From assembly GCF_030285925.1 (NCBI RefSeq), contig NZ_CP127251.1, positions 3,085,001-3,149,000 of the forward strand: DNA of 64,000 nt, in the 5' to 3' direction. Under the pieces are notes generated by a model, which was not told the DNA's origin, ran no database searches, and saw nothing but the letters and a program-made list of their open reading frames with translations. The translations under genes were made by a program, and so were the position numbers. This DNA is from Devosia sp. YIM 151766. Its GTDB lineage: Bacteria > Pseudomonadota > Alphaproteobacteria > Rhizobiales > Devosiaceae. Of the stretch, positions 5,111 to 64,000 are shown in pieces; the stretch's first letter is position 1; each line of letters opens with the position of its first letter.

Positions 5111-5292
5111 ATTTAGACTCCGATTCTGCCGAGAGTCGAGTCCCTTTTGCAGCACCCGCTGTGACATGGGCGCATCAGCAGCGCTCAAGACCGCGTGAAA
5201 ATCCGGCCAAGCCATTGAGCCGGCGCCACTTATGGCTAAGTCTCAAGCCGCCGGCCCGCGGCTATTCGAAACCCTATCCCGACGGAGCTCCC

Positions 5293-54555: not shown

Positions 54556-54571
54556 GGTTTCACGTGGAACA
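54556..54571. promoter_or_regulatory. parS-like ParB site 1 (holA-parB intergenic)
   Basis: GGTTTCACGTGGAACA matches the parS palindrome TGTTTCACGTGAAACA at 14 of 16 positions. It lies between the convergent holA and parB genes. Confidence 0.75.
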
Positions 54572-54588: not shown

Positions 54589-55467
54589 TTACCTGGTTCT
54601 GCCCGTCAAACGCAGGCAGAGATCGTCCAATTGTTCGAGCGTCCTATAGCGGATTTCGAGCTTGCCACCGCGTTCGGAATGGTTGAGCGCCACGCTCAGG
54701 CCCAAAGTGTCGGCGAGACGCCGTTCCAGCGCCAACGTATCGGCATCGCGCTGCTCATCATTGTCAGATAAAGGTTTGCGCCGAGGCAGGTCACGCTGCT
54801 GGCTGAGAGCTTCGGCCTCGCGCACCGACAAACCCTTATCGACGATCTGGCGCGCCAGGCCCGCCGGGTCCTCGACGGTGATCAGGGTCCGTGCATGCCC
54901 GGCCGTCAACGTGCCGCTGGCCACCATGCCCCGCACATCCTCCGGCAGGCGCAGCAGCCGAAGCGTATTGGCGACATGCGAGCGGCTCTTGCCGATGACC
55001 TGCGCCAGGTCCTGTTGCGTATATTCGAATTGCTCGATCAACTGGCCATAACCCATGGCCTCTTCCAGCGGGTTGAGGTCGGCGCGCTGCACATTCTCGA
55101 TAATGGCGAGCTCCAGCGCCTCCTTGTCGTCGACCTCACGAATAATGACCGGAACGTCATGCAAGCCGGCCTTCTGCGCCGCCCGCCAGCGCCGTTCGCC
55201 GGCGATCAGCTCGAAAATATTCGGGTCCTCGCTCGGGCGCACCAATAAAGGTGACATCACGCCCTTTTCCCGGATCGAATTGGTCAGCTCTTCCAGCTGC
55301 TCGGCATCGAAAGAGCGGCGCGGATTGGCGCGATTGGCGATGATGAAATCGACCGGCAGTCTTTTGCTGCCCGATCCCGATTCGGTGACCCTGGCACCTT
55401 CCATCACGGCCATATCGCCGATCAATGCCGCCAGGCCCCGCCCCAGTCGCGTCGGTTTGTCGGTCAT
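54589..55467 (-). CDS. parB: Chromosome-partitioning protein ParB
   Basis: CTP-dependent DNA clamp that loads at parS and organises the origin for segregation. In the 292-residue protein the N-terminal RGLAALIGDM is the ParA-contact region. The CTPase/parS-binding part has LLVRPSEDPNIFELIAGERR with the arginine patch GERRWRAAQ, NVQRADLNPLEEAMGY and the helix-turn-helix TQQDLAQVIGKSRSHVAN. The C-terminal dimerisation domain ends LDDLCLRLTGRTR. It follows parA by nine bases in the same direction. Confidence 0.97.
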   Translation of the reverse strand: MTDKPTRLGRGLAALIGDMAVMEGARVTESGSGSKRLPVDFIIANRANPRRSFDAEQLEELTNSIREKGVMSPLLVRPSEDPNIFELIAGERRWRAAQKAGLHDVPVIIREVDDKEALELAIIENVQRADLNPLEEAMGYGQLIEQFEYTQQDLAQVIGKSRSHVANTLRLLRLPEDVRGMVASGTLTAGHARTLITVEDPAGLARQIVDKGLSVREAEALSQQRDLPRRKPLSDNDEQRDADTLALERRLADTLGLSVALNHSERGGKLEIRYRTLEQLDDLCLRLTGRTR

Positions 55468-62193: not shown

Positions 62194-63228
62194 CTAACCG
62201 TGCTTGACCAGTTCCACCAGCCGCTCGACATGAGCAATCGGCGTTTCCGGCACGATACCGTGGCCAAGATTGAAAATATGCGGGCGATCCGCAAAGGCGG
62301 CGATAATGGCCTCGACCTGCTTTTCCATCGCTTCGCCGCCGACCACAAGCCGCAAGGGATCGAGATTGCCCTGCACCGGCAGGTCGGCCGGCAGATGCGA
62401 GCGGACGAAATCCAGCGGCGTCGCATAATCGACGCCCAGGGCATTCACGCCGGTCATCTGGGCATAGCGCGCCATATTGCCGGCGCCGCCGCGCGGAAAG
62501 CCGATGATCGGAGCATTGGGAATGCGCTGGCGCAGGCCTTCGACGATGCGCCTGTTCGGGTCGATGACCTGGCGGACAAAGGAAGCATCGTCCAGATTAA
62601 GCGCCCAGCTCTCGAAAATCTGCACCACATCGGCCCCGGCTTCGAGCTGGGCCGCCAGGTAATCGATGCTGGTCTCGACCAGCATGTCCATCAGACGATC
62701 GAAAGCCGCTGGCTGCTCCAGGGCGAAGCGTCGCGCCACCCATTGGTCCGGCGAGCCGCGGCCATTGAGCATATAGGTCGCCACCGTCCAGGGCGCGCCG
62801 CAAAAGCCGATCAGCGTCTTGTCAGCCGGCAATGTAGCGCGTAGCCGGCGGATGGTTTCGAGAACCGGCGCCAGATGCGCGCTGGCCCGAGCCGGCTCGA
62901 GCCTGTCGATGCCTTTGACATCAAGCGGCTCGAGGATCGGACCTTCACCGGTTTCAAAGCGGACCGACTGGCCCAGCGCGTCGGGAATGACCAGGATATC
63001 GGAGAACAGGATCGCCGCATCCAGGTCGAAGCGGCGCAGCGGTTGCAGCGTCACCTCGGCCGCCAGTTCGGGATTGTAGCAGAGATCGAGGAAGGTTCCC
63101 GCCTGCTTCCTGGTCTCGCGATATTCAGGCAGGTAACGGCCGGCCTGCCGCATGATCCACATTGGCGGTCGGTCCTGGCGCTGCCCCAGCACCGTCGCCA
63201 GCAGAGGTTTATGTACCACCGGATTCAT
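62194..63228 (-). CDS. hemE: Uroporphyrinogen decarboxylase
   Basis: Converts uroporphyrinogen III to coproporphyrinogen III. The 344-residue protein has RPPMWIMRQAGRYLPEYRET at residues about 20-39, AAILFSDILVIPDALGQ, and GFCGAPWTVATYML; GVDYATPLDFVRSHLP and VQGNLDPLRLV follow. The ATG at 63228 is used. In alphaproteobacteria hemE is the classical neighbour of the chromosomal origin, and the interval upstream fits this. Confidence 0.97.
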   Translation of the reverse strand: MNPVVHKPLLATVLGQRQDRPPMWIMRQAGRYLPEYRETRKQAGTFLDLCYNPELAAEVTLQPLRRFDLDAAILFSDILVIPDALGQSVRFETGEGPILEPLDVKGIDRLEPARASAHLAPVLETIRRLRATLPADKTLIGFCGAPWTVATYMLNGRGSPDQWVARRFALEQPAAFDRLMDMLVETSIDYLAAQLEAGADVVQIFESWALNLDDASFVRQVIDPNRRIVEGLRQRIPNAPIIGFPRGGAGNMARYAQMTGVNALGVDYATPLDFVRSHLPADLPVQGNLDPLRLVVGGEAMEKQVEAIIAAFADRPHIFNLGHGIVPETPIAHVERLVELVKHG

Positions 63229-63416
63229 GTTTTCGACCCTTCCAAATCCCAAAAGGAATCTTTCTTTCTTAGTTTCTTTATCATCATGACGGTGTTTTGC
63301 GGCAATTCCGTCCGCTCCACAATCGCCACCCATGGTGACACTTGCGCGCAGCGTCATGGTTAACAGAGTGTGAATTGCTTTCTGGCGCGCTGTCCCGACG
63401 TCGCCGCCTCAATCCT

Positions 63417-63432
63417 TAACAAAAGCTTAACC
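63417..63432 (+). promoter_or_regulatory. CtrA binding site consensus in candidate oriC
   Basis: TTAACAAAAGCTTAAC is a perfect match to the full CtrA motif TTAA-N7-TTAAC. In Caulobacter such sites in the origin let CtrA repress replication. A weaker copy (TTAA-N7-TTAG) is at 63560-63574. Confidence 0.65.
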
Positions 63433-63437
63433 GGCGG

Positions 63438-63462
63438 ACTCCCGAGTCAACGATTCGATTCT
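63438..63462. other. Cluster of four CcrM (GANTC) methylation sites
   Basis: GACTC at 63438, GAGTC at 63445, GATTC at 63453 and GATTC at 63458 lie within 25 bases, immediately after the CtrA-type site. GANTC is the CcrM target in alphaproteobacteria and its methylation state reports replication. Confidence 0.6.
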
Positions 63463-63559
63463 GCCTGTGGACGCGGCAGAGAATATCGCGGCGCGCCGCC
63501 TTGGCCTTATCCCCAGACCTATCCCATGCCTCCACCGGCCAGCCGGCCGGGTCGAGTTG

Positions 63560-63574
63560 TTAATGTTTTATTAG
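63560..63574 (+). promoter_or_regulatory. Second, imperfect CtrA-type site
   Basis: TTAATGTTTTATTAG is TTAA-N7-TTAG, one mismatch from the CtrA motif, within an AT-rich stretch of the candidate origin. Confidence 0.35.
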
Positions 63575-63650
63575 CCAAGTCGAACAAACCGGCCGCTGCG
63601 GGAAAGTTACGAGTCTTGCCCACAGATGGCGCTTGAGCTGGGGATGAGTG

Positions 63651-63659
63651 TGTGGAAAA
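63651..63659 (-). promoter_or_regulatory. DnaA-box-like site before maf
   Basis: The reverse strand reads TTTTCCACA, which fits the relaxed DnaA box TTWTNCACA. It lies ten bases before the maf ATG. TTATCCCCA at 63507-63515 on the forward strand is one mismatch from TTATCCACA. Confidence 0.55.
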
Positions 63660-63668
63660 CATGGTTTC

Positions 63669-64000
63669 ATGCTGATCCTTGCATCCACCAGCGCCACCCG
63701 CAAAGCCTTGCTGGACAAGGCCGGATTGCGCTTCGAAGCCATCCCGGCGGCAATCGACGAGCGGGGCATCGAAGGCGAAGCCATGGCGATCGGCGCCGAT
63801 GGCGGCGACCTGGCGCTGCTCTTGGCGCAGCGCAAGGCCGAATCGGTTTCGCGCCTGCACCCGGGCGCTTTGGTGATCGGAGCGGACCAGACTTTGACCC
63901 TGGGTCGGGAGTTTTTACACAAGCCCGGAAGCCGCGCCGCCGCTGCCGCCCAGCTCGACCGCCTGCGTGGCCGGACCCATCGCCTCCATGCCGCCGTCAC
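63669..64000 (+). CDS. maf: Maf family nucleotide pyrophosphatase (3' end outside window)
   Basis: Maf proteins hydrolyse non-canonical nucleoside triphosphates and can affect septation. The visible 110 codons begin MLILASTSATRKALLDKAGL, the signature S-x-S-x-x-R start, followed by AIPAAIDERGIEGEAM, LLLAQRKAESV and VIGADQTLTLG with the catalytic Asp (GADQ). The gene is cut by the window edge at about half its usual length of about 200 residues. It begins directly after the candidate origin; the ppsR gene often found between is absent. Confidence 0.93.
   Translation, partial: MLILASTSATRKALLDKAGLRFEAIPAAIDERGIEGEAMAIGADGGDLALLLAQRKAESVSRLHPGALVIGADQTLTLGREFLHKPGSRAAAAAQLDRLRGRTHRLHAAV

Follow-up and report, generated by a model that had tools for sequence, protein, structure and literature searches.

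Where on the chromosome of Devosia sp. YIM 151766 does replication start, and is this start controlled directly by the cell-cycle regulator CtrA? The question is raised by a 440-bp gap between hemE and maf, at the right end of the analysed window, i.e., the whole 64,000-nt stretch that corresponds to bases 3085001-3149000 of one 3,292,759-bp contig (3.29-Mb genome). Our reading is that the gap is the chromosomal origin of replication (oriC) and that CtrA gates initiation from it, and to this reading as a whole we assign a probability of about 70%. It rests on a perfect CtrA box that is kept, within one mismatch, in all 31 family genomes compared, on a preference for the exact half-site spacing that reaches far beyond it, and on the surroundings of the gap. 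A candidate oriC had already been proposed at this place by a reading made from the sequence alone (hereafter, the sequence-only reading), and this proposal is now well supported by the position of the gap, its conserved DnaA-like boxes, the nearby parAB genes and parS-like sites, and a 25-genome alignment.

Motifs of the hemE-maf gap

The features of the gap are given in window coordinates, with the strand where a feature has one:

63229-63668: hemE-maf gap, predicted oriC, 440 bp, exactly from the HemE start codon to the Maf ATG
63249-63288: AT-rich stretch, candidate unwinding element, 70% AT here and 67% as the genus mean, with a recurring GANTC at 63256
63334-63351: GGTGACACTTGCGCGCAG, ending in CGCAG, five bases that do not vary in the alignments of 25/25 genus members; it matches no motif tested
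63360-63374: CtrA-like box 1, TTAACAGAGTGTGAA, one half-site mismatch in this genome
63416-63430: CtrA box 2, the central one, TTAACAAAAGCTTAA, a perfect TTAA-N7-TTAA
63437-63461: four GANTC (CcrM) sites in 25 bp, at 63437, 63444, 63452 and 63457
63507-63515, plus strand: DnaA-box-like TTATCCCCA
63560-63574: CtrA-like box 3, TTAATGTTTTATTAG, one half-site mismatch
63611-63615: recurrent GANTC, some 195 bp to the 3′ side of box 2
63639-63647, minus strand: DnaA-box-like TCATCCCCA
63651-63659, minus strand: DnaA-box-like TTTTCCACA, which shares a strongly conserved block (CTTGAGCTGGGGATGA..GTGTGGAAAA) with the 63639 box

The exact CtrA motif that the sequence-only reading had placed in this interval was confirmed, as the 16-mer TTAACAAAAGCTTAAC at 63416-63431 matches the full motif with 0 mismatches, and so was the group of four GANTC sites in 25 bases, which begins 5 bases past this 16-mer. 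Instead of the single CtrA site seen earlier, three CtrA-like boxes were found (63360, 63416 and 63560), which extend over 215 bp of the gap and of which only the one at 63416 is perfect. The DnaA-box-like sequences were also recovered, as a cluster of three predicted boxes in 153 bp. The AT-rich DNA had been expected beyond the GANTC cluster and has to be relocated: the richest stretch, the candidate unwinding element, lies beside hemE at 63249-63288, 63469-63548 is only 30-33% AT, and a second AT-rich patch occupies 63549-63588. The consensus of integration host factor (IHF) has no strict match in the gap, and is matched with a single mismatch at two places, 63417 and 63448.

GANTC is underrepresented in the window as a whole (89 observed against 284 expected from shuffles), so that the four-site cluster cannot be put down to chance. 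Over the whole genome, the exact TTAA-N7-TTAA has 19 occurrences, against 23 for the reversed control, and is hence rare and not enriched as such. In a density scan of 16,911 overlapping segments of 450 bp, which covered 0.86 Mb or 26% of the genome, only the segments on the gap held three CtrA-like boxes (at most one mismatch); the GANTC maximum (seven) also fell on them, and the maximum for DnaA-like boxes (three) was shared with one other place. A second GANTC cluster of the window, with four sites in 27 bp at 5116-5142, adjoins a GAAC-N7-GAAC (SOS-box-like) sequence and, by eye, an apparent ImuA-like open reading frame on the minus strand. A coding or small open reading frame interpretation of the gap was rejected, given the one-base indels in the genus alignment.

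Several of the regulators that such an origin would involve are present. The genome encodes a CtrA that is 95% identical to the CtrA query used, and also GcrA, a CcrM-like methylase and RcdA. The 500 bp upstream of gcrA (L184) and of ctrA (L081) carry five and four GANTC sites, respectively, and two one-mismatch CtrA-like boxes each.

Conservation of the boxes in the family and the order

A HemE search yielded 25 members of the genus, including the present genome, which together with six family genomes (two of the same genus) made up a set of 31 Devosiaceae genomes. In all 31, hemE is one boundary gene of the gap and maf the other, and in 25/25 genus members the gap measures 431-442 bp. When each box was scored as the best match no more than 4 bp from its aligned place, box 2 was perfect in 28/31 genomes and carried one mismatch in 3/31, so that the central site, the conservation of which in close relatives had been proposed as a check with the sequence-only reading, lies within one mismatch in every genome. 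Box 1 was perfect in 14/31 and had one mismatch in 13/31, box 3 had one mismatch in 22/31, and at least two GANTC sites were found 10-60 bp beyond box 2 in 24/31. Within the genus, identity averaged 99.5% in the half-site columns of box 2, against 59% for the spacer between them and 70% for the gap as a whole; a bound box made of two half-sites would be expected to show such conserved half-sites around a variable spacer. The block that holds TTTTCCACA and TCATCCCCA on the minus strand also ranks with the best-conserved parts of the gap. Perfect boxes with spacers of 3 to 13 bases were then counted in the 31 family gaps as a control, and the numbers were 2, 1, 0, 5, 44, 1, 0, 0, 0, 0 and 3, i.e., 44 for the seven-base spacer and 0-5 for any other. 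One record, titled as a Devosia equisanguinis metagenome-assembled genome (MAG; L213), has a HemE 56% identical to that of the window and stands beside family f2 in the tree described below, and its label may be wrong.

Beyond the family, hemE was found in 195/199 genomes drawn from the order. We took 109 loci outside Devosiaceae, and in 90 of them, covering 37 families, the gap is bounded by ppsR or maf. No boundary gene was recognised within 700 bp in the other 19, which were left out of this count; in six of these, a perfect box lies no more than 500 bp from hemE. Twenty-three loci had initially been dropped, and four of these, from the family, were recovered via BLAST coordinates. An exact TTAA-N7-TTAA was present in the hemE-side gap of 37/90 genomes from 16/37 families, and the scope of control given by the sequence-only reading, "this lineage", was therefore too narrow. 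With Devosiaceae included, at least one genome has CtrA boxes in 17/38 families with a bounded gap; genomes of the same family are not independent. The preference for the spacing was again exact, with 3, 1, 4, 3, 45, 1, 0, 2, 5, 0 and 0 perfect boxes for spacers of 3 to 13 bases in the 90 outside gaps. Furthermore, 89 perfect boxes were counted in the 55.4 kb of all 121 gaps and none in the 346.5 kb that flank the gaps at the same loci; much of the flank is coding, which makes this control lenient, and the strict control is that by spacer length. The boxes of family f27 (two near-identical genomes, in which only 2 bp separate the box from the start of hemE) were kept in the count, although they could be due to chance. 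A rule that GANTC lies inside the spacer of the CtrA box was rejected, as this holds for 4/45 boxes outside the family and 0/44 within it. In seven loci from Bradyrhizobium and family f34 (L269-L272, L274, L275 and L278), hemE is not beside ppsR, and 3-4 GANTC sites lie within 45 bp upstream of ppsR, as if the methylation cluster went with the origin side.

At least 80 alphaproteobacterial loci from named genomes were also scanned, 33 of them bounded within 1000 bp and the others read as the first 500 bp. Among the matches listed, perfect boxes were present in 7 of 80 loci, namely both Cohaesibacter, Methylobacterium J-088, a Methylobacteriaceae MAG, the Hyphomicrobiales MAG RYN_502, and two of the three Hyphomonadaceae loci, in the latter within 500 bp upstream of hemE. 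Among the same matches, no perfect box was found in Rhizobium, Mesorhizobium, Shinella, Aminobacter, Aquamicrobium, Bradyrhizobium, Roseibium, Chelatococcus, the sphingomonads or Rhodobacteraceae. A tree of 116 rows was built by a quick method from HemE fragments and PpsR, with 35/112 inner branches left open and with 38 rows that had no usable PpsR, including the whole Devosiaceae family, left out. In its Rhizobium/Mesorhizobium clade a perfect box was present in 0/18 rows, which agrees with the published Sinorhizobium results. Box presence required 19 changes on the tree, against a mean of 31.5 after shuffling (minimum 25 of 200), and is hence inherited, yet often gained or lost. On balance, we lean towards the view that CtrA boxes in the hemE-linked origin are widespread and possibly ancestral in Hyphomicrobiales, and that the Sinorhizobium/Brucella state is a derived loss in one clade; "ancestral" is a reading only, as gain and loss cannot be distinguished on this tree.

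A proposed gated origin and its rivals

The neighbourhood of the gap bears on whether it is an origin at all, and the relevant features are:

62194-63228, minus strand: hemE (uroporphyrinogen decarboxylase), left boundary, PF01208, E=3.8e-111, start codon at 63228
63669-64000, plus strand: maf, right boundary, running beyond the window end, PF02545, E=4.2e-41, ATG at 63669
54589-55467, minus strand: parB, PF02195/PF17762
55477-56277, minus strand: parA, PF13614
54556-58889: five parS-like sites, at 54556, 56536, 56806, 58838 and 58874, with 1-2 mismatches, 0.01 expected

The last of these were called with a parS consensus, and together with parAB they lie 4.3-8.7 kb from the gap. By Pfam, the gene order left of hemE is hemJ (UPF0093), rho, mnmE, mnmG, rsmG, parA and parB, and aroE follows maf. 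This order is the usual one around alphaproteobacterial origins, ppsR apart. No PF03618 match to ppsR was found across the genome, and maf holds the place of the second boundary gene instead; outside the family, ppsR is the first gene past the gap in 84/90 bounded loci and maf in 6/90. Because the Wolbachia origin has COG1253 in the place of ppsR (COG1806), as described in PMC1914354, and because six outside loci have maf, ppsR was not treated as defining a hemE-linked oriC. The conserved gap, its boxes and the parS-like sites, taken with the hemE-linked origins already known (PMC1914354), argue that the gap is oriC.

On the scale of the chromosome, an octamer resembling the FtsK orienting polar sequences (KOPS), GGGNAGGG, was counted as 54 plus and 21 minus in 9 stretches at 0.18-1.52 Mb, and as 17 plus and 73 minus in 18 stretches at 1.56-3.149 Mb. 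The switch expected of a terminus lies at about 1.53-1.56 Mb, so that the two arms, measured from the gap, would be about 1.60 and 1.69 Mb long, and the gap is within some 60 kb of the antipode of the terminus. This polarity brackets the origin coarsely, from about 3.13 Mb to 0.18 Mb, and dnaA, at base 37, where the contig begins, is also inside. No match to dif was obtained in the genome with a 21-mer query of the E. coli type.

In the mechanism that we propose, DnaA would assemble on the TTATCCCCA and TTTTCCACA/TCATCCCCA boxes and open the AT-rich stretch beside hemE. Phosphorylated CtrA would bind the boxes throughout the gap, and the central one above all, so that in one cell type or stage the bound origin may stay closed until CtrA loses its phosphate or is degraded. 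Newly replicated GANTC sites near the central box would be hemimethylated until CcrM acts, and could mark an origin that has just fired. Such a firing mark is plausible by analogy, as GANTC near the Caulobacter origin is reported to be hemimethylated in about 80% of cells (PMC3973325); caution comes from Agrobacterium, in which depletion of CcrM is reported to have had no obvious effect at ori1 (PMC11514494). Caulobacter-like initiation control, as suggested by the sequence-only reading, would appear right in kind, and CtrA gating of initiation is probable as far as sequence can tell.

Several observations weigh against a CtrA-gated origin in the gap. Box 1 is lost, with four or more mismatches, in 4/31 family genomes, and box 3 is perfect in 0/31 and has two or more mismatches in 9/31. 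The GANTC cluster is absent or single in 7/31, so that its conservation, which the sequence-only reading had also expected, held only in part. GC skew, which the sequence-only reading had named as a check, is negative in 34/44 sampled stretches, with no clean switch here or elsewhere; it is positive in 9/25 right-arm and 1/18 left-arm stretches, a weak lean in the expected direction. To the right of the gap, KOPS polarity is mixed (24/28) over about 0.32 Mb. The nearest consensus DnaA box lies 44 bp from a CtrA box (box 3), without overlap, weaker DnaA cores not being callable by consensus. At the Caulobacter origin, CtrA is described as probably excluding DnaA, yet weakening of all five boxes there disturbs the cycle only mildly, except with nutrients and antibiotics together (PMC4468827), and hence boxes need not mean a strong gate. 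Finally, the single Caulobacteraceae MAG fetched (L222) has no perfect box in the 500 bp upstream of hemE, so that even in the home group either the motif test misses boxes or boxes are lacking. As an observation apart, negative GC skew on both arms seems unusual for a closed circular chromosome.

The main rival to CtrA gating accepts the gap as oriC and gives the CtrA boxes to transcription, of hemE, of maf or of a small RNA like Caulobacter CcnA, with an indirect effect on replication. The place of the box, 140-245 bp from hemE in 11/16 of the box-positive outside families (a range set post hoc), would suit a promoter element. The spread of three boxes over 215 bp argues against such a role, as do the lack of any Rfam match in the gap and an RNA fold that is unremarkable on both strands (z -1.72 and -0.83), and we regard this rival as unlikely. 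In 10/12 genomes searched, hemE is not beside ppsR, and in none of these 10 was an exact box found upstream of either gene.

We consider it very improbable that the gap is an ordinary divergent promoter with the origin elsewhere, e.g., near dnaA. The missing GC-skew switch at the gap would fit this, and so would a contig that starts at dnaA and a KOPS polarity that cannot separate dnaA from the gap. Around base 1 (3.8 kb before and 3 kb after), by contrast, there is no CtrA-like box with up to one mismatch and no DnaA-like box, whereas the gap ranks first in CtrA and GANTC density, and joint first in DnaA boxes, of the sampled DNA; parAB and parS-like sites are near it, and hemE bounds known alphaproteobacterial origins (PMC1914354). 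Equally hard to credit is another regulator that prefers TTAA-N7-TTAA, with the GANTC cluster merely a GcrA-type promoter mark: GANTC groups also occur upstream of gcrA and at 5116-5142, but the literature gives TTAA-N7-TTAA as the CtrA consensus of the Caulobacter origin (PMC1914354), the genome encodes a CtrA 95% identical to the query used, and the seven-base spacer alone is enriched.

CtrA boxes at known origins and in the rhizobial order

The closest model for a CtrA-gated oriC in the gap is Cori of Caulobacter crescentus, which likewise has hemE on one side, several TTAA-N7-TTAA boxes distributed over the origin, an AT-rich element, and DnaA boxes mostly short of the full consensus. Cori differs in having five CtrA boxes, against three (one perfect) in the Devosia gap, and two G-boxes near or over CtrA sites (PMC4468827), an overlap not seen with the consensus DnaA boxes of Devosia. 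The Devosia gap, unlike Cori, has maf as its right neighbour, in a genome in which no ppsR homologue (PF03618) was found. A tight GANTC cluster adjoins its central box.

Sinorhizobium meliloti belongs to the same order as Devosia, and Hyphomonas neptunium to another. S. meliloti also has CtrA; PMC4433202 reports its origin without a CtrA motif or CtrA binding, and holds that CtrA, if it governs initiation, acts by an indirect mechanism that it calls unknown. The origin of B. abortus is not bound by CtrA, as told in PMC2877005. In H. neptunium, a CtrA chromatin immunoprecipitation peak adjoins the origin (PMC7200025), i.e., binding was demonstrated there, whereas here it is predicted from sequence. 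The Rickettsia and Wolbachia origins are also hemE-linked with predicted CtrA-like motifs, but these bacteria are obligate intracellular, and the number of boxes in Wolbachia varies, with none in one strain and two to seven otherwise (PMC1914354). In a 2015 review, CtrA sites are described as unseen in other origins, possibly with the exception of R. prowazekii, and the use of CtrA by some marine Caulobacter as probably independent (PMC4468827). PMC8116508 deals with where CtrA genes are positioned. Searches of the open-licence literature showed no paper that describes CtrA boxes at the origins of this family or of the order.

Control of the origin by CtrA, best known from Caulobacter, may thus also work in rhizobium-like bacteria, which were thought to lack it. 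With conserved boxes at the origin in the order of S. meliloti, direct CtrA control becomes testable there, and natural origins with and without boxes offer a comparison for the purpose of CtrA at origins. These results suggest that the best-studied rhizobia may be the exception, and if the boxes are indeed ancestral, the statement that CtrA does not act at the rhizobial origin would have been generalised from a derived Sinorhizobium/Brucella state.
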